Assembly: GCF_004362805.1 (NCBI RefSeq)
Contig: NZ_SNYF01000005.1
Coordinates: forward strand, 1,016,797-1,080,796
Origin: Algoriphagus boseongensis
GTDB taxonomy: Bacteria > Bacteroidota > Bacteroidia > Cytophagales > Cyclobacteriaceae
Direction of reading: 5' to 3'
Length of the DNA stretch: 64,000 bases
Under the pieces are notes generated by a model. That model was not told where the DNA came from. It saw nothing but the letters and a program-made list of their open reading frames with translations, and searched no databases. Position numbers and translations under genes: made by a program. This document shows positions 3,283 to 63,762 of this stretch, in pieces. Position 1 is the first letter of the stretch; each line of letters begins with the position of its first letter.

Positions 3283-4416
3283 ATGAATTTATTCGACGTA
3301 TACCCCTTAATTCCAGTGACTTTGGTGAAAGCTGAAGGATGTAAACTTTGGGATGATCAGGGACAGGAATATTTAGACTTGTATGGTGGTCATGCCGTGA
3401 TTTCCATAGGTCATACTCACCCACATTACGTAAAGCGAATCAAAGATCAATTGGATCAGATTGCGTTTTATTCCAATTCCATTCATATCCCTATTCAGGA
3501 ACAATTGGCTCAAAAGCTTGGAGAACTTTCTTGTCTTCATGAATACAAGCTCTTTTTGGTCAATTCTGGTGCAGAAGCAAATGAAAACGCCCTGAAAATG
3601 GCATCCTTTGCCACTGGAAAACCTGGTTTTATTGCTTTTTCCGGATCATTTCATGGGAGAACTTCCGGTGCTGTAGCATTGACTGACAATCCAAAAATTG
3701 TGGCGCCATGCAATGAACGTACAGATTTTCATATTCTACCTTGGGGAGATTTAGAATCTGTCGAGGAAGCTTTGAAATCAAATGCCATTGCTGGAATTAT
3801 CATTGAAGGAATTCAAGGAGTTGGCGGAATCCAGGTTCCGGAGGTTTCTTTTTTACAGGGTCTTTCTTCTCTTGCTAAAAAATATGAAGCCAAATTAATC
3901 CTTGACGAAGTTCAATCCGGATACGGAAGAACTGGGCGATTCTTTGCTCACCAGTGGGCTGACGGAGTAATGCCAGATTTGATTACCATGGCCAAAGGTA
4001 TGGGCAATGGTTTTCCTATCGGAGGTCTTTTGATTTCACCAGAATTCAAAGCTAGCTATGGCTTATTGGGAACCACTTTCGGGGGTAATCATTTAGCTTG
4101 TGCAGCTGGATTGGCTGTTTTGGAGGTTTTGGAAAAGGAAAAACTTCAATCTAAGGCCTTGGATCTAGGGAATAAGGTGATGGAGGAACTTAGAAAAATT
4201 CCTGGTGTCACCGAAGTCCGAGGAATTGGACTAATGATCGGATTAGATCTGGATCGAGATGCTGGTCCAGTCAGAAATGAATTGGTGAAAAAGTACCACA
4301 TCTTCACCGGATCAGCCGCAGGAAAGCAAACCATTCGTCTCCTTCCTCCTTTGTCTGTAGAATGGAATGAGTTAAATTCGTTTATAGTCGCATTAAAAGA
4401 GATTCTCTCCAATTGA
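3283..4416 (+). CDS. argD: Acylornithine aminotransferase
   Basis: PLP-dependent class III aminotransferase that converts the N-acylglutamate semialdehyde to N-acylornithine with glutamate as amino donor. The length of 377 residues is typical. Visible motifs are the phosphate-binding NSGAEANENALK (near 98-109), LDEVQSGYGRTG (near 207-218) with the cofactor aspartate, and AKGMGNGFPIGG with the Schiff-base lysine at position 238. An inverted repeat GATTCTC/GAGAATC (4401-4421) covers the stop codon. The neighbours favour N-succinyl- or N-acetylornithine as product. Confidence 0.94.
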   Translation: MNLFDVYPLIPVTLVKAEGCKLWDDQGQEYLDLYGGHAVISIGHTHPHYVKRIKDQLDQIAFYSNSIHIPIQEQLAQKLGELSCLHEYKLFLVNSGAEANENALKMASFATGKPGFIAFSGSFHGRTSGAVALTDNPKIVAPCNERTDFHILPWGDLESVEEALKSNAIAGIIIEGIQGVGGIQVPEVSFLQGLSSLAKKYEAKLILDEVQSGYGRTGRFFAHQWADGVMPDLITMAKGMGNGFPIGGLLISPEFKASYGLLGTTFGGNHLACAAGLAVLEVLEKEKLQSKALDLGNKVMEELRKIPGVTEVRGIGLMIGLDLDRDAGPVRNELVKKYHIFTGSAAGKQTIRLLPPLSVEWNELNSFIVALKEILSN

Positions 4417-4434
4417 GAATCGAAAAATCCAGAG

Positions 4435-5379
4435 ATGATGCATTTCACAAAATTTGAATCTTTTGATTTAGGGCAAGAACTTATTGAACTAGCCCTTGCT
4501 TACAAAGCCAATCCAAGAATTGACCTCGCAAAAGGACAGGGAAAAAGGGTGGGTTGTATTTTTCTAAATCCCTCACTAAGGACTCGTGTTTCTACACAAA
4601 TAGCCGCCCAAAACCTCGGCATGGAACCAATTGTCCTGAATATGGACAAAGAAGGCTGGGCGCTTGAAATGAATGAAGGTGCCATCATGAACAAAGGAAC
4701 CGTCGAGCATATCAAAGATGCTGCTGGTGTTTTAGGAACCTATTTCGATATTTTGGCTATCAGAGCGTTTCCTTCTTTGACTAACAAGGAGGAAGATGTT
4801 ACCGATTTTATTTTTAGTCAATTTATCAAATACAGCGGTGTACCAGTGATTTCTCTTGAATCTGCTACTAGACATCCTTTACAAAGTCTGGCTGACCAGA
4901 TAACCATTCAGGAAAATTTGGCTGGAAAAAAGAAGCCGAAAGTTGTCCTGACTTGGGGTCCACATATCAAAGCTATACCTCATGCAGTAGCGAATAGCTT
5001 TGCAGAATGGACTTTGGGAATGGGTCATGACCTGACCATCACCCACCCTTCTGGGTATGAATTGGATGAGGAATTCACCAAAGGAGCAACCCTAGAATAC
5101 GATCAAAGTAAGGCCTTAGAAGGTGCTGATTTTGTGTATGTTAAAAACTGGTCAGGATTCAATGATTATGGAAAAATCATTTCCACGGACTCAAGTTGGA
5201 TGCTTACAGAAAAGCATCTAAAACATGCTCCGGAAGCCAAAGTCATGCACTGCCTACCTGTGAGAAGAAATCTGGAATTGTCCGATGAAATTCTGGACAG
5301 CTCAAGATCTTTGGTACAAAAACAAGCTGAAAATAGAATCTATGCAGCACAAGCCGTGATCAGTAAAATCCTCGGCTAA
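4435..5379 (+). CDS. argF': N-succinylornithine (or N-acetylornithine) carbamoyltransferase
   Basis: Transfers a carbamoyl group to N-acylornithine and gives N-acylcitrulline, replacing the ornithine carbamoyltransferase of the standard pathway. The 314-residue protein has the carbamoyl-phosphate loop NPSLRTRVSTQ (45-55), ATRHPLQSLAD and HCLPVRRN. The substrate-choosing residue is Val90, in GTVEH, when aligned from memory with Bacteroides fragilis SOTCase (Pro90) and Xanthomonas AOTCase (Glu92). Published mutagenesis showed that Pro, Ser or Val at that position favours N-succinylornithine. So the family is clear, and succinyl specificity is a sound inference. A start at the second Met, 4438, is equally possible. 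Confidence 0.9.
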   Translation: MMHFTKFESFDLGQELIELALAYKANPRIDLAKGQGKRVGCIFLNPSLRTRVSTQIAAQNLGMEPIVLNMDKEGWALEMNEGAIMNKGTVEHIKDAAGVLGTYFDILAIRAFPSLTNKEEDVTDFIFSQFIKYSGVPVISLESATRHPLQSLADQITIQENLAGKKKPKVVLTWGPHIKAIPHAVANSFAEWTLGMGHDLTITHPSGYELDEEFTKGATLEYDQSKALEGADFVYVKNWSGFNDYGKIISTDSSWMLTEKHLKHAPEAKVMHCLPVRRNLELSDEILDSSRSLVQKQAENRIYAAQAVISKILG

Positions 5380-5403
5380 AATCTTTTTAAACCCTCCCAA
5401 CCT

Positions 5404-6204
5404 ATGAAAATCTCTATCATAAAAATTGGCGGCAACGTCATCGACTTCCCGGAGAAGTTGGATGCATTTTTGGCCTTATTTGCCAAGTTCCCCGGACATA
5501 AAATATTGGTTCATGGGGGTGGAATCTTGGCATCAAGATTTGGAGAAAGCATGGGAGTAATGCCAGAAATGGTGGATGGGAGAAGAATCACCGATAAGGA
5601 CACCTTGGACATTGTGACCATGGTTTATGCGGGTTTAATCAATAAAAATATTGTAGCTAAGCTTCAAGCCCTCAAAGTAGATGCAATCGGGATGACTGGT
5701 GCCGACGGAAATTTGATCAGATCGATCAAAAGACCTGTAAAAAGCATCGATTATGGATTTGTTGGAGATATTCAGGAAGTAAACACCAAGCTTTTGGATA
5801 CTTTATTGGCGGCCGGTTTGCAACCCGTAATCAATGCAATTACGCATGATAAAAAGGGTCAATTGCTCAATACCAACGCCGATTCCATTGCATCCTCCCT
5901 AGCAACGAGTTTGGCGAAAGACCACCATGTGAATTTGTATTTCTGCTTCAACAAAAGCGGGGTATTGATTGACGAAAAAAACGAGAGTTCCATCATTCCT
6001 TTGATCAATGAAGACATCTATGCAGAATTGAAAAAGGAAAGTGTGATTCATTCCGGGATGATTCCTAAACTGGACAATGCCTTTGCTGCACTCGAAAAGG
6101 GCGTACAACATGTTTGGATTGGAAAAGCCGAAAACCTGCTTTTAGCAGCTAAAGGAAAACTTTCAGGCACTACCATAGAACGTCATCGTTACGATTTGTA
6201 CTAA
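5404..6204 (+). CDS. argB: N-acylglutamate kinase
   Basis: Phosphorylates the gamma-carboxyl of N-acetyl- or N-succinylglutamate with ATP. The 266-residue amino-acid kinase fold protein has KIGGNVID (residues 7-14) and the substrate loop VHGGGILAS (near 37-45). IGMTGADGN (near 95-103) and INALTHD-like nucleotide-side segments also match the family. The stop codon TAA shares one base with the argE ATG (6204), so the two genes are coupled. Whether arginine inhibits it cannot be read with confidence; the N-terminal helix typical of arginine-sensitive kinases is absent. Confidence 0.93.
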   Translation: MKISIIKIGGNVIDFPEKLDAFLALFAKFPGHKILVHGGGILASRFGESMGVMPEMVDGRRITDKDTLDIVTMVYAGLINKNIVAKLQALKVDAIGMTGADGNLIRSIKRPVKSIDYGFVGDIQEVNTKLLDTLLAAGLQPVINAITHDKKGQLLNTNADSIASSLATSLAKDHHVNLYFCFNKSGVLIDEKNESSIIPLINEDIYAELKKESVIHSGMIPKLDNAFAALEKGVQHVWIGKAENLLLAAKGKLSGTTIERHRYDLY

Positions 6205-24209: not shown

Positions 24210-24238
24210 AAAAAAAGGAGTGATAATCACTCCTTTTT
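24210..24238 (+). terminator. Terminator after pckA
   Basis: AAAGGAGTGA/TCACTCCTTT with loop TAA, followed by TTCTTTT; the A-run on the left also allows the other direction. Confidence 0.88.
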
Positions 24239-57348: not shown

Positions 57349-57381
57349 TTTGGATTATTAAACAGTGTTTAATTATTTTTG
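57349..57381 (+). promoter_or_regulatory. tetR promoter
   Basis: TTTG at 57349-57352, 21 bases, and perfect TATTTTTG at 57374-57381; start near 57388, 13 bases before the gene. The operator fills the spacer, so the regulator would block its own promoter. Confidence 0.65.
57357..57373. promoter_or_regulatory. TetR operator copy 1 (perfect 17-base palindrome)
   Basis: ATTAAACAGTGTTTAAT: perfect 8-base arms and a central G, located between the -33 and -7 boxes. The same arms recur at 58035-58051 with a central C, in reverse orientation. It is the natural binding site of the TetR protein next to it. Confidence 0.8.
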
Positions 57382-57400
57382 ACCGTTCAATAAAATTGAA

Positions 57401-58018
57401 ATGGGAATCGCTGATAGAAAAGAGAGAGATAAAGAAGAGTTGAGGGAAAAAATCCTTCATGCTGCCAAAGACCTTTTTTTAATCAAAGGCTTCGAAAAAA
57501 CCTCTATTCGAAATATTGCTGACCAAATCGAGTACAGCCCAGGAATCATTTACCATTATTTCCGGGATAAAAACGAAATTTTCCATGCCCTTCATCAAGA
57601 AGGTTTTCGGCAGTTAATGGCCAAAATGAGCGTATTGGCTTCAGTTCGCAATCCAATTGAGCGCCTCAAAGCCATGGGAAGTATTTATGTAAGCTTCGCC
57701 TTGGAAAACCCTGATATGTATGATCTTATGTTTATCAAGGAAGCCCCAATTGATCATGTAATCGACTTAGAACATGACGATTGGAAAGAAGGTGGTGGCA
57801 CATTCAATTTTCTAAGAGGAACAGTTCAGGAAAGCATAAACCTAGGATATTTCAAAGGTCATGACCCGGAAGCCCTTTCATACATGATCTGGTCTGTAGT
57901 TCATGGTATGGTTTCCCTAAGTATTAGGAAAAGATGTGATGTGGTTTTGGCTTCCAGAAAAGACAGCATTGTAAGTGATGCTTTGGATGAATTTTATAAA
58001 ATCATAGATCGTCTCTAA
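57401..58018 (+). CDS. TetR-family transcriptional regulator of the efflux operon
   Basis: 205 residues. The helix-turn-helix is EKTSIRNIADQIEYSPGIIYHYFRDKNEIFHAL (near 31-63), then a ligand-binding domain of eight to nine helices with VSFALENPDMYDLMFI and SYMIWSVVHGMVSL. It probably represses its own gene and the downstream tolC-adaptor-RND genes through the two palindromes, and is relieved by an efflux substrate. The ligand is unknown. tolC starts 42 bases after the tetR stop on the same strand. Confidence 0.88.
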   Translation: MGIADRKERDKEELREKILHAAKDLFLIKGFEKTSIRNIADQIEYSPGIIYHYFRDKNEIFHALHQEGFRQLMAKMSVLASVRNPIERLKAMGSIYVSFALENPDMYDLMFIKEAPIDHVIDLEHDDWKEGGGTFNFLRGTVQESINLGYFKGHDPEALSYMIWSVVHGMVSLSIRKRCDVVLASRKDSIVSDALDEFYKIIDRL

Positions 58019-58034
58019 AAAAATTTACCTATCT

Positions 58035-58051
58035 ATTAAACACTGTTTAAT
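58035..58051. promoter_or_regulatory. TetR operator copy 2 before tolC
   Basis: ATTAAACACTGTTTAAT, the exact reverse complement of copy 1, ending nine bases before the tolC start at 58061. No good promoter box is seen at this site, so it may act as a roadblock for read-through from tetR, or overlap a poor promoter. Confidence 0.75.
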
Positions 58052-58060
58052 TTAAAAACG

Positions 58061-59422
58061 ATGTATAAAGCTAGAACAGATTACCTAAAAAAAATCCTTT
58101 ACCTTCTGGTGATTTTTTCCCCTTTGAATTCTTGGGGACAAGGTATTTTAAATCAATATCTCCAAGAAGGCCTAGAACAAAACTTGGTTTTAAGGGAAAA
58201 AAACATTGAGCTGGAAAAAAGTCTTTTGGCCTTAAAGGATGCCAAGAGTTATTTCCTTCCAACCGTGGATTTTGGAGCAAATTACACCTTGGCGAGTGGA
58301 GGCAGAACGATCAGCATTCCTATTGGCGATCTTTTAAATCCAGTTTATTCGACCTTAAATCAACTAACCGGAAGTAATTCATTCCCACAACTGGAAAATG
58401 TTAATGAGCAATTCCTTCCGGATAACTTTTATGACGCGAGAGTCAGAGCTTCCCTCCCATTGATCAATACAGATTTGATTTATCAAAAGGAAATCAGGGA
58501 AAAACAAGTGATCCTCTCCGAGTACGAGTTGGATATTTATGAAGCCAATTTGATTCAAGACATCAAGATGGCTTACTATACTTTTTGTACTGCCCACACT
58601 GCAATTGAGGTAATCGAAAATGCGAAAGTCCTGGTAGAGCAAAATCTCAGGGATAATCGAATCCTTCTCGAAAATGGAAAAGGTCTTCCCTCCTCTGTAC
58701 TCAGAGCGGAAAGTGAAGTGGAAAATATCAATGCGCTTTTGATTGAAGCCAAAGCTAAAAGGCAGAATGCAGCGAATTATGTGAATTTTCTCTTGAATCG
58801 CCCCATTCAAACCGAAGTGGTTTTTGAGCCTCAGACCCTTGATATGAAGGAATTTGCTGAGCTGATGGGTGAAAATAATATCTCAGGGAGGTCAGAACTT
58901 CTTCAGGTCCAAACGGCAGAATCAATCCAGGAAACTATCCTGAAATCCAATAAAAATTACTGGGTACCCAAGTTAAACACCTTTGCAGACATGGGTTCTC
59001 AGAGTTTTGATTGGGCCTTTGACAAGCAATCCAGGTACCTACTTTTTGGCTTGAATATGACTGTTCCACTTTATCAAGGAAATAGAAATAGAAACCAAAT
59101 TCATCGAGGAGAACTCAACTTAAAGTCAGTTCAAAATCAAAAAGAACTCCTCAATGAGAAACTTTCTCTAGATCTCCAATTAGCCAAAAACGAGGTTTTA
59201 ACCCAGCAGGCTGCCTTACAATCAGCCGAAAAGAAGCTGGAATCCTCTGTTTCCTATTTCCGATTGGTAGATCGGGGATTTAAAGAAGGGGCAAATTCCT
59301 TAATCGAATTCCTGGATGCGAGAAATCAATATACCCAAGCCTCGCTTCAAAAAACTATCAGTTCCTACAACCTACTCAAATCTCTGGCGGCTCTTGAGCG
59401 CCAACTGACCACTTCAAATTGA
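58061..59422 (+). CDS. TolC-family outer-membrane efflux protein
   Basis: 453 residues. The signal peptide ends near residue 28 (SWGQG). Two repeats of the OEP domain with long helices: NQYLQEGLEQNLVLREKNIELEKSL at the start and ESSVSYFRLVDRGFKEGANSLIEFLDARNQ near the end, the latter the family hallmark. It is the outer-membrane channel for the adaptor and RND pump that follow. The stop is six bases before the adaptor start. Confidence 0.92.
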   Translation: MYKARTDYLKKILYLLVIFSPLNSWGQGILNQYLQEGLEQNLVLREKNIELEKSLLALKDAKSYFLPTVDFGANYTLASGGRTISIPIGDLLNPVYSTLNQLTGSNSFPQLENVNEQFLPDNFYDARVRASLPLINTDLIYQKEIREKQVILSEYELDIYEANLIQDIKMAYYTFCTAHTAIEVIENAKVLVEQNLRDNRILLENGKGLPSSVLRAESEVENINALLIEAKAKRQNAANYVNFLLNRPIQTEVVFEPQTLDMKEFAELMGENNISGRSELLQVQTAESIQETILKSNKNYWVPKLNTFADMGSQSFDWAFDKQSRYLLFGLNMTVPLYQGNRNRNQIHRGELNLKSVQNQKELLNEKLSLDLQLAKNEVLTQQAALQSAEKKLESSVSYFRLVDRGFKEGANSLIEFLDARNQYTQASLQKTISSYNLLKSLAALERQLTTSN

Positions 59423-59427
59423 AAGCC

Positions 59428-60474
59428 ATGAAAAAGCATTCTTATTTACTCCTAGCATTTGTTCCGGTCATTCTTTTTTCATGTGGAAAAAAGGAAACCA
59501 GCGAAGATACCCTTGTGAAAGGCGAGAGTATTCCTGTCCAAATCCTCTCCATTCAGCCGGGTAGTTTTTCTACAGAAATATCGGCGAGTGGGACCTTTTC
59601 CACCAAAAATGAAACCGTGTTGGCTTTCAAAGTCGGAGGAATCATTTCCAAAATGAACGTCCAGGAAGGTGATCAGGTCAGAAAAGGACAAGTACTAGCC
59701 ACCTTGGATAGAACTGAAGTGGAAGCGGGCTTTAATCAAGCCAAACTTGCTTTTGAAAAAGCTCATCGAGATTTTACAAGAGTGGGAAACCTTTATCGGG
59801 ACAGCGTGGCTACTCTTGAGCAATACCAAAACAGTAAAACTGCCCTAGATATATCAGGACAGCAATTAAAAGCTGCTGAATTCAACCTTTCCTATGCGGA
59901 AATCAGGGCTACCCAAAATGGTTTTGTGCTTAGAAAATTTGCCAACCCAGGCCAATTGGTTAATTCAGGAGCTCCGGTATTACAAATCAACGGGGCTGGG
60001 CAAGGCAATTGGGTCTTGCAAGTTTCTGTCAACGATTTCAATTGGAGCCTTATTTCCACCGGTGATTCAGCCTCCATTCAACTTGATAACCTGGGCAAGG
60101 AAATTTCCGGAAAAGTCATCCGCAAAAGTCCAGCAAGCGATCCTGTCACAGGAGCCTACTGGATTGAAATTAGCCCAGATAATTCAAGTGAGCTAAATCT
60201 TGCCTCAGGGATGTTTGCAAAGGCTAAGATTTTTCCCAAAAACCCACAGACCGGCTGGAATATTCCTTACGAGGCGCTTCTAGATGCGCAAGGAAATGAA
60301 GGATATGTATTTGTAACCGCCGATGGAAAAACAGCCAAAAAGGTCAAGATCAAATTAGGTAAGCTGTCTACACAAACAGTGGAAGTTTTGGAAGGGCTGG
60401 AAGGATATTCCCAATTGATCAGCTCTGGAAGCGCTTATTTATCGGATGGTTCCACTATTACCATTAAGAACTGA
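59428..60474 (+). CDS. RND efflux periplasmic adaptor lipoprotein
   Basis: 348 residues from the ATG at 59428 (a TTG at 59419 would add three residues and overlap the tolC stop). Lipoprotein: FVPVILFSC, lipid anchor Cys19. Adaptor parts: barrel-sandwich start VLAFKVGGIISKMNVQEGDQVRKGQVLATLD (near 57-87), a coiled-coil hairpin (near 88-145), and beta-barrel with NPQTGWNIPYEALLDAQ. Links TolC to the RND pump. One base overlaps the pump start (TGATG). Confidence 0.92.
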   Translation: MKKHSYLLLAFVPVILFSCGKKETSEDTLVKGESIPVQILSIQPGSFSTEISASGTFSTKNETVLAFKVGGIISKMNVQEGDQVRKGQVLATLDRTEVEAGFNQAKLAFEKAHRDFTRVGNLYRDSVATLEQYQNSKTALDISGQQLKAAEFNLSYAEIRATQNGFVLRKFANPGQLVNSGAPVLQINGAGQGNWVLQVSVNDFNWSLISTGDSASIQLDNLGKEISGKVIRKSPASDPVTGAYWIEISPDNSSELNLASGMFAKAKIFPKNPQTGWNIPYEALLDAQGNEGYVFVTADGKTAKKVKIKLGKLSTQTVEVLEGLEGYSQLISSGSAYLSDGSTITIKN

Positions 60475-63400
60475 TGAAAATCTCAGAATTCGCGGTTAAA
60501 AATTACCAGTTTACTCTGGTGATCTTCCTGATGGTAATTGCATTGGGAGCGACGACCTTTTTCAACATGCCCAGAAGTGAGGATCCAGTCATTGAATCGC
60601 CCCAATATCCCATTGTGGTAATTTATCCTGGCGCAAGTCCAGAAGATATGGAGGAATTGATTGTAGATCCTATGGAAAAAGTGATCTATGGCTTGGAAAA
60701 CATCAAGAAAATCAAAACCGAAATTAAAGACGGAGTTGCGGTTCTTTTTGTGGAGTACAATTACGAAGAAGATGTCAATGAAAAATACCAGGAACTTGTC
60801 CGAGAGGTAAATATCCTCAGACCATCCCTACCTCAGGACATTTTTTCGATAGAAGTCAGAAAGGTCAGGCCATCAGATGTAAATATTCTCCAAATCGCAT
60901 TAATCAGCGAAAATGCCTCCCGGGAACAGTTGAATAAGGCAGGTGAAAGACTCCAGGAAGAACTGGAGAAAATAACCGAACTGAAAAAAATTGACATTCA
61001 CGGACTACCAGATAAAACCGTCAAAGTAGAGCTTCAGCTTGACAAAATCGCTGAAATGAATATTCCACTAAACGCTATCCTTGGAAGTATTCAAAGCGAA
61101 TTGACCAATATTCCTGGAGGACAGATAGATGCCGGAACCAAAACTTTCAATGTAAAAACTAGCGGCAATTACAAAAGCGCTGAAGAAATTGCACAGACGG
61201 TCATTTATTCCTACCAAGGTCGGACTATCCAACTTCAGGATGTTGCCAAAGTCAGCAATGATTTTGAAGATGAAAAACACATCACCAGATTAAATGGGTA
61301 TAGATCCATTTTCGTCACTGCAGCGCTAAAAGAAGGAAACAACATCACCAAGGTTCAGGAAAAATACCTTCCAATCATTGAAAAGATAAAAGCCGAATTG
61401 CCTCAAAATATTGATTTGGTGTTGGCTTTTGATCAAGCTGAGTATGTAAACAGAAGATTGGGAGGACTTGGCGTCGATTTTCTGATTGCCATCGCCTTGG
61501 TATTTATTACCCTCCTTCCTTTGGGAAATCGGGCATCCATCATTGTGATGATTTCCATCCCTCTTTCCCTAGCCATTGGTTTGGTTCTACTGAATGCTTT
61601 AGGTTTTGGTTTAAATCAGCTGAGTATAGTCGGATTAGTGGTGGCACTGGGGCTGTTGGTAGATGACAGTATCGTGGTGGTTGAAAATATCGAAAGATGG
61701 ATCCGGGAAGGAGTCAGTAAAAAAGAAGCCGCATTAAAAGCTACAAAACAGATTTCCTTGTCCGTGGTGGGTTGTACGGTTACTTTGATTATCGCCTTTT
61801 TGCCCTTAGTTTTTCTTCCAGAGGCATCCGGTGACTTTATCAGAAGTCTTCCTATGGCGGTCATTTTAAGTGTTTTGGCCTCCATGTTGGTTTCCTTGAC
61901 TATCATTCCATTTTTGTCTTCCTGGATTTTAAAAGACAAAGGACCTGATCATAGCAATAAGGTTTATGATTGGTTTCAGAAGCTAATCCAAGCCAGTTAT
62001 GCTCCACTTTTGGAAAGAGCTTTGAGAAAGCCTTTAGTCACTTTGGGCATTGCAGGATTAATATTTGTAGCCTCTTTGAGCCTATTTCCAATAATTGGTT
62101 TCAGCCTTTTCCCTTCTTCAGAAAAGCCTCAATTCTTAATTAATATCACTACCCCACTTCAATCGAGTATCCGGAACACCGATCAAATTACCCGAGAAGT
62201 AGAAAATGAGCTTATCCAAATTCCGGAACTGGTAAACTTTGCATCCAATGTCGGAAAGGGTAATCCCAGGATTTATTACAATGAAATCCCCGAAAATGAG
62301 CGTACGGACTATGCCCAGATATTTGTTCAATTGAACCCAGAAACAGCTCCTCCAAGGAAATTGGAAATAATCGAAGAATTGAAAAGTAGATTTTCAACCT
62401 ATTCTGGAGCGAGGATTGAAGTTAAAAACTTTGAACAAGGTCCACCGATGACAGCTCCCGTTGAGGTCAGACTGTATGGAGAAAACTTGGATACTTTGAG
62501 GTCATTGGCCTTCAAAGTCGAAAAATTGCTCCAAGAAACACCGGGCACGATCTATATCAACAACCCGGTAACCAACTTGAAAACAGACATTCGGGTAACA
62601 ATCCAAAAGGAAAAAGCCAGACAGTTGGGAATCAATATTTCTGAAATTGACCGCACAGTTCGATTGTCATTGGCAGGTTTGAATCTGGGCCAATTTACAG
62701 ATGAGGAAGGTTTTGAAAGATCTATTCTGGTAACCTCCCCAAAAGAGGATCAGGCTTCATTGGAAAATCTAAATGGAGTTTATATCTACAATCAAGCTGG
62801 ATCGTCCGTTCCTTTAAATCAAGTTGCAGACTTTAAGTTGGAGAGCAGCACCTTGACGATTGACCATTACAATAAAGTCAGAGCAGTTTCGGTCTCTTCT
62901 TTCGTGGATCAAAACTTTCTCAACGACCGGGTAATCAAGGATGTAATCCAAAAAATGGATCAAATCCAATTTCCCGAAGGCTATTCCTATAAAATGGGTG
63001 GGGAATACGAAACTCGTGAAGAATCCTTTGCCGGATTTAATAGCGTGATCATTGTTACGGTCTTCCTCTTCATCGCAGTTTTAATTTTGCTATTCAGAAC
63101 CTTCAAAAGCACCATCATTGTTCTTTCCGTTATTCCCCTAGGAATGGTAGGAGCTTTAATCGGACTTTGGATCACTGGGAACTCTTTATCCTTTGTAGCG
63201 ATTGTAGGTCTTATTGCGTTAGCAGGAATTGAGGTAAAGACCTCCATTTTGCTGGTTGATTTTACCAATCAATTAAGAAAAGAAGGAAAACCTTTGGACT
63301 TAGCAATCCGTGAAGCAGGAGAGATTCGTTTTTTACCGATAGTGCTGACTACCATCACTGCCATCGGAGGATTAATCCCAATTGCTTTGAGTACCAATCC

Positions 63401-63509
63401 GCTGATTTCTCCTCTGGCTATTGTTTTAATCGGAGGATTGGTCAGCTCAACTTTGCTTTCAAGAATTGTCACTCCGGTGATGTATAAACTAGTACCGCCT
63501 AAAATTTGA
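60474..63509 (+). CDS. RND multidrug efflux transporter (AcrB/MexB-like HAE family)
   Basis: 1011 residues, about 12 membrane segments with two large periplasmic loops. FFNMPRSEDPVIESPQYPIV opens the first loop; LGLLVDDSIVVVENIERW (near residues 394-411) is the proton relay in helix 4 with the conserved Asp pair. The IEVKTSILLVDFTN segment follows the helix 10-11 pattern. Likely cargoes are drugs, dyes or host-like toxins. The Asp pair rules out the metal-type group's usual signature, but the cargo cannot be read. Part of the TetR-controlled run. Confidence 0.93.
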   Translation: MKISEFAVKNYQFTLVIFLMVIALGATTFFNMPRSEDPVIESPQYPIVVIYPGASPEDMEELIVDPMEKVIYGLENIKKIKTEIKDGVAVLFVEYNYEEDVNEKYQELVREVNILRPSLPQDIFSIEVRKVRPSDVNILQIALISENASREQLNKAGERLQEELEKITELKKIDIHGLPDKTVKVELQLDKIAEMNIPLNAILGSIQSELTNIPGGQIDAGTKTFNVKTSGNYKSAEEIAQTVIYSYQGRTIQLQDVAKVSNDFEDEKHITRLNGYRSIFVTAALKEGNNITKVQEKYLPIIEKIKAELPQNIDLVLAFDQAEYVNRRLGGLGVDFLIAIALVFITLLPLGNRASIIVMISIPLSLAIGLVLLNALGFGLNQLSIVGLVVALGLLVDDSIVVVENIERWIREGVSKKEAALKATKQISLSVVGCTVTLIIAFLPLVFLPEASGDFIRSLPMAVILSVLASMLVSLTIIPFLSSWILKDKGPDHSNKVYDWFQKLIQASYAPLLERALRKPLVTLGIAGLIFVASLSLFPIIGFSLFPSSEKPQFLINITTPLQSSIRNTDQITREVENELIQIPELVNFASNVGKGNPRIYYNEIPENERTDYAQIFVQLNPETAPPRKLEIIEELKSRFSTYSGARIEVKNFEQGPPMTAPVEVRLYGENLDTLRSLAFKVEKLLQETPGTIYINNPVTNLKTDIRVTIQKEKARQLGINISEIDRTVRLSLAGLNLGQFTDEEGFERSILVTSPKEDQASLENLNGVYIYNQAGSSVPLNQVADFKLESSTLTIDHYNKVRAVSVSSFVDQNFLNDRVIKDVIQKMDQIQFPEGYSYKMGGEYETREESFAGFNSVIIVTVFLFIAVLILLFRTFKSTIIVLSVIPLGMVGALIGLWITGNSLSFVAIVGLIALAGIEVKTSILLVDFTNQLRKEGKPLDLAIREAGEIRFLPIVLTTITAIGGLIPIALSTNPLISPLAIVLIGGLVSSTLLSRIVTPVMYKLVPPKI

Positions 63510-63513
63510 AAAC

Positions 63514-63762
63514 ATGAACCAACATTTCTCTCAACTCAAGAAGGCTGTAGAAGTATTCCATTCTTATGGAATATCCCTAGTAGGCCCACGCAAAAATGAT
63601 CACTTTATCAAGCAATTAAATATGGATCCTGTATTCGTGAAGGGATTGATATTTGAGCTGGAATACAACCTCCAAGTAGTCTTACAAGATGAACTGTTAG
63701 GAAACGCTTGTACTCCAAAAGAGGTGATCAAGCTTCTCCTGAATATTCCACAGGACAATTAA
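63514..63762 (+). CDS. Acyl-carrier-like protein without the phosphopantetheine serine
   Basis: 82 residues, close behind the RND gene (four bases). The last 45 residues resemble an acyl carrier protein: MDPVFVKGLIFELEYNLQV (near 37-55), which aligns with the DSLDTVELVMALEEEF helix II of ACP, then an acidic turn and EVIKLLLNI like the C-terminal helix. The serine that carries the prosthetic group is Pro39, so it cannot carry an acyl chain. It might bind to a partner or be a small regulatory unit of the efflux system. Judged by eye, moderate certainty. Confidence 0.5.
   Translation: MNQHFSQLKKAVEVFHSYGISLVGPRKNDHFIKQLNMDPVFVKGLIFELEYNLQVVLQDELLGNACTPKEVIKLLLNIPQDN

Follow-up and report, generated by a model that had tools for sequence, protein, structure and literature searches.

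Does the TetR-family protein encoded between two copies of one palindrome use both of them as operators, and so control its own gene together with the efflux operon that follows? The locus lies in a 64-kb window (the whole stretch of DNA that was analysed) and reads, in order, kefF-like, kefC-like, site 1, tetR, site 2, tolC, RND adaptor, RND pump and a gene for an 82-aa protein (Table 1). The regulator gene adjoins the outer-membrane, adaptor and pump genes, all co-directional, as expected of a local RND regulator. The same gene order is found in most loci of Algoriphagus, the genus of the nearest named relatives, and in Chitinophaga. The 82-aa gene is possibly the last of the operon. KefFC was considered as part of the unit and rejected, since some two-site Algoriphagus loci (L074, L075) lack kefFC beside tetR.

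Table 1. Features of the tetR-efflux locus, in window coordinates.
Feature	Position	Strand	Basis or comment
-33 box TTTG of tetR promoter P1	57349..57352	+	Sequence; column profile
Operator 1, ATTAAACAGTGTTTAAT, within P1 spacer	57357..57373	.	Upstream match in 107/110 relatives
-7 box TATTTTTG of P1	57374..57381	+	Consensus TAnnTTTG; at least 5/6 match in 79/107 relatives
tetR	57401..58018	+	205 aa; TetR_N and TetR_C_33 (Pfam); recognition helix 47-53 with Gly48
TTTA, a conserved TTT[GA] box 9 bp before operator 2 core	58024..58027	+	Proposed weak P2 -7 box (putative role)
Operator 2, ATTAAACACTGTTTAAT, between tetR and tolC	58035..58051	.	Match in 84/110 relatives
tolC-like outer membrane efflux protein	58061..59422	+	453 aa; Pfam OEP
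RND periplasmic adaptor	59419..60474	+	351 aa; Pfam HlyD_D23/HlyD_3; TIGR01730 above cut-off
RND inner-membrane pump (AcrB/AcrD/AcrF family)	60474..63509	+	1011 aa; Pfam ACR_tran 4.5e-201
82-aa protein	63514..63762	+	No Pfam match; follows pump in relatives

The regulator combines an N-terminal helix-turn-helix (PF00440, 1.6e-14, residues 18-64, above cut-off) with a C-terminal ligand and dimerisation domain (PF13305, 5.4e-12). Its AlphaFold2 model (pLDDT 87.7) is all-helical, matches TetR-family structures and defines the DNA-reading helix given in Table 1. Its best hit among the NCBIfam models, RefZ (NF037937), scores 42.6 bits against a cut-off of 180, and the AcrR model (NF007949) 32.3 bits against 271. 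The adaptor and pump proteins match general models (TIGR01730 and ACR_tran).

The earlier note had placed two palindromes with identical 8-base arms on either side of tetR, the first inside the spacer of a TTTG-N21-TATTTTTG promoter and the second ending nine bases ahead of the tolC ATG, all of which the sequence bears out. The centre base alone differs between the two (G or C), and in relatives it varies freely among C, G, A and T. Calling the sites inverted copies, as was also done, is literally true but uninformative, because only the central base can give an odd-length palindrome an orientation. Against a background of 60 first-order Markov simulations of the window, the eight odd palindromes with 8-base arms observed there compare with a mean of 1.9 per 64 kb. 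A single palindrome of this kind is unremarkable; the matched pair is remarkable because none of the 60 simulations yielded two palindromes sharing arms. The search of the genome for further copies that the note had proposed was run, and found no other exact copy in its 4.18 Mb; allowing two mismatches adds two matches, as many as a reversed-pattern control gives. Elsewhere in the window, at 24217-24233, intergenic GGAGTGATAATCACTCC is followed by T-rich sequence and resembles an intrinsic terminator.

The promoter whose spacer holds site 1 is of the canonical Bacteroidota type. The -33 box of Bacteroidota sigma-A promoters is TTTG or TTG and lies about 19-21 bp from the -7 box. In Flavobacterium psychrophilum the -7 consensus is TAnnTTTG, with its last base at -5 (PMC9723704). 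P1 conforms to this pattern, and its 21-base spacer (57353-57373) has 17 bases occupied by the palindrome, so that a palindromic operator lies in the regulator's own promoter region, as expected of a TetR. TTG and TAnnTTTG boxes flank site 1 in Algoriphagus and likewise in Chitinophaga; on strict criteria, a -33 TTG and a -7 box matching at least 5/6 are both present in 56 of the 107 relatives with an upstream site. Immediately after the -7 box, at 57382-57391, ACCGTTCAAT contains a GTTCA-like half-site conserved in many relatives, one column of which is A in 31/31 aligned rows. It may serve as an additional half-site or as a signal in the initial transcript.

Conservation of the sites was assessed in the flanks of TetR relatives drawn from the genus, family, phylum and class, 110 of which were usable, a site being called when at least nine of ten scored positions matched. 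In these Bacteroidota loci a site flanks tetR on both sides in 81, upstream only in 26, downstream only in three and on neither side in none; many of the relatives are closely related, so the counts are not independent and most weight falls on the distant relatives (Chitinophaga and other families and classes). The match rate in length-matched random stretches of those loci is 1.3% and 2.1%, and 2/133 reversed flanks match. When 76 genomes of the genus were scanned with the degenerate motif TTRAACASTGTTYAA, 36 of the 38 sites found were at this tetR. Of the other two, one marks a decayed pump locus in G010, and one is next to a gene for DAHP synthase (L091, in G042) and is probably a chance match. 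A wider regulon was therefore rejected, given these two lone sites and the genome's want of further exact copies.

In G010 (L090, operator at 5231) tetR, tolC and the adaptor gene are gone and the pump gene is mostly gone, with the operator left behind; in G004 (L092/L077; 3262-5830 of L092) tetR is frameshifted, tolC and the adaptor gene are gone and the pump gene is broken, and again the operator remains. Regulator and pump thus appear to have decayed together, independently in two Algoriphagus genomes, since both losses coincide in G010 and in L092.

Sites of this kind also accompany other relatives of tetR. One genome (G021) carries, besides its efflux-linked tetR, a paralogue 52% identical (L093, G021:C12:388500-400000, at 4400-5911) with the same operator on both sides and a short-chain dehydrogenase gene after it; the two regulators could cross-talk. 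Three further loci (L096, L099, L102) have a site in the upstream position only, imperfect in L099, and other genes downstream. The gene close downstream in L096 encodes a metallo-beta-lactamase fold; the function regulated there would be a different one. Judging by gene neighbourhoods, the putative twin-site switch is not tied to a pump.

The palindromes are linked to this particular protein by a covariation between residue 48, in the DNA-reading helix, and operator base ±5: Gly or Ala goes with TRAAC and Thr with TTAAC. Base 5 is A or G in 210/212 half-sites of relatives with Gly48 and T in 32/32 of those with Thr48. Among Ala48 proteins the base is mixed (19 G, 17 A, 4 T), which means that residue 48 does not act as the sole determinant; one Ser48 protein has C in 3/4 half-sites and another has A and G. 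A tree that leaves out columns 47-49 has the T48/TTAAC pair arising three times, residue and base always together. A single T48 clade is rejected (p-AU 0.0055), a value to be read with the long branches of the deep tree and the mere three pairs in mind; a sign test on three independent pairs cannot reach 0.05. The change appears to have occurred on two or three separate lineages. In loci fetched after the rule had been seen, it held in 17/17 scorable upstream sites, TTAAC in 7/7 with T48 and TRAAC in 10/10 with G48 or A48 (residue 48 of L150 being read by eye). The exception among these loci is a downstream match with T48 (L140), which reads TGAAC and sits at an unusual position.

In alignment Gly48 corresponds to Gly45 of DarR, a residue that in the DarR-DNA structure contacts the methyl group of a thymine (PMC10636190). 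Together, the covariation and this alignment tie the palindromes to this TetR and not to another factor. A search of the literature for TetR P39 as a specificity residue produced nothing useful. A bolder proposal, on which we are evenly divided, is that of a phylum-wide TetR clade with a simple code, in which residue 48 (G/A, T or S) would set base 5 (A/G, T or C) and the twin sites would have been kept while specificity drifted on separate lineages. If so, a swap of this residue and a matching base swap at both operators flanking tetR would re-address the switch.

Comparative sequence evidence, in the form of phylum-wide footprinting, co-loss of tetR and pump, the site pair around a paralogue and residue-base covariation, thus strongly supports the earlier suggestion that the palindromes are TetR operators controlling tetR and the efflux operon. 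We put at roughly 0.88 the probability that both are operators of the TetR encoded between them, which would autoregulate tetR and block transcription of the pump genes until a ligand released both. The sequence of the sites, their conservation and placement, and their covariation with the recognition helix are seen directly, and from them we infer TetR binding, repression as its sign, an internal promoter and a ligand. In outline, a TetR dimer at site 1 would cover the spacer of the tetR promoter and block RNA polymerase, so that tetR would limit its own expression, and a dimer at site 2 would block transcription into tolC-mfp-RND. A pump substrate or related ligand would free both sites, turning on regulator and pump together.

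The means of repression at site 2 is a further question, for although copy 1 of the proposed control model lies within a standard -33/-7 spacer, copy 2 is not so placed. As a control for the -7 box at site 1, such a box was sought after site 2, and only two copies of that site are followed by one; site 2 so rarely precedes a -7 box that the site 1 geometry is not repeated there. What recurs instead is TTT[GA] at exactly 9 bp upstream of site 2, in 64 of the 84 relatives with that site. If TTT[GA] is a -7 box ending at -5, site 2 would span about +4 to +20, and covering this stretch of a weaker internal promoter is the most likely form of the block. In the window the presumed -7 box of P2 (AAAATTTA) is weak, and the aligned column profile of relatives shows no consistent -33 box 19-21 bp ahead of it; registration of site 2 on the wrong repeat in rows L014 and L016 weakens that profile slightly. 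We infer that site 2 either overlies the start of a weaker tolC promoter within the operon or is a roadblock; with copy 1 in the -33/-7 spacer and copy 2 downstream of TTT[GA], the two sites probably repress by different means. An AACAnYG-like motif, just ahead of the tolC start or at it, is also conserved with constant spacing downstream of site 2 (window 58052-58063, and in relatives).

In the roadblock reading, which we consider somewhat unlikely, site 2 would have no promoter of its own; transcription from the tetR promoter would run on into the pump genes, and TetR at site 2 would obstruct elongating polymerase, adding to repression at site 1. In keeping with it, only 42 bp separate tetR from tolC, the P2 box is weak with no consistent -33 ahead of it, and a clade in which tetR abuts tolC (L018-L028, MAGs with small assemblies) keeps site 1 and lacks site 2. 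It fits poorly with the strict 9-bp spacing of TTT[GA] to site 2 across the phylum, and with the hairpin and T-run seen by eye between tetR and site 2 in L031, L034, L060 and L079, beyond which a promoter would be needed.

Two other readings keep TetR at both sites and are very improbable. Activation of the pump would be in line with a minority of TetR-family proteins, but a protein bound at either site would be expected to shut out polymerase, site 1 lying between the -33 and -7 boxes and site 2 downstream of the proposed one. Bridging of the sites by a DNA loop of some 677 bp, through TetR tetramers or a partner protein, is suggested by near-identical sites 674-679 bp apart in most Cyclobacteriaceae-type relatives; this constant distance, however, follows from the constant length of tetR, other relatives have 688, 699, 703, 752 or 775 bp with no common helical phase, and TetR dimers do not usually loop DNA. 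Least probable of all is recognition of the palindromes by some other regulator, or a role for them in RNA as hairpins or terminators. A perfect palindrome is able to fold into a hairpin, but half-sites vary independently (A stands opposite C in 20/55 upstream sites) and change without compensation, at site 2 included, which argues for selection on two protein contacts, as of a dimer, and not on base pairing. In addition, the presence of sites goes with that of tetR, and the operator base follows residue 48 of this very protein.

Repression by this TetR from both palindromes remains the preferred reading, and it supplies a concrete putative operator, TRAACANTGTTYA, for a widespread Bacteroidota efflux regulator, in which one protein residue predicts one operator base. 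Few local regulators have been mapped in this phylum, and efflux operons controlled in this way could be recognised straight from sequence.

Among known systems, the closest PDB sequences (8suk, 8sva) are those of DarR, also of the TetR family, whose helix-turn-helix aligns with the present one; it differs in its operator, ATACT(N)4AGTAT, in sensing c-di-AMP and in its unrelated target genes. The operator of Thermus thermophilus FadR, another TetR-family protein, is TTRNACYNRGTNYAA (PMC5597230), an odd palindrome of 15 bp that resembles TTRAACANTGTTYAA in having a short centre between A-C ... G-T half-sites, although FadR regulates fatty-acid genes and the bases flanking the centre are Y/R there and A/T here. 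AcrR, MtrR and CmeR, from Proteobacteria and Campylobacter, are likewise TetR-family repressors beside a pump operon that bind an inverted repeat, but the present protein scores far below the AcrR and MtrR model cut-offs. The nearest described precedent found is BmeR5 of Bacteroides fragilis, which is reported to bind the regulator-pump intergenic region IT1 and to repress bmeABC5, its deletion raising pump expression (PMC4790292). Like the TetR described here it is a local regulator of this type beside an RND operon in the same phylum; compared by description, that review gives it one intergenic region, with no operator sequence and no second site before the regulator. The present locus seems, then, to hold a standard autoregulated TetR-efflux switch, textbook in mechanism and undescribed in this lineage and family.
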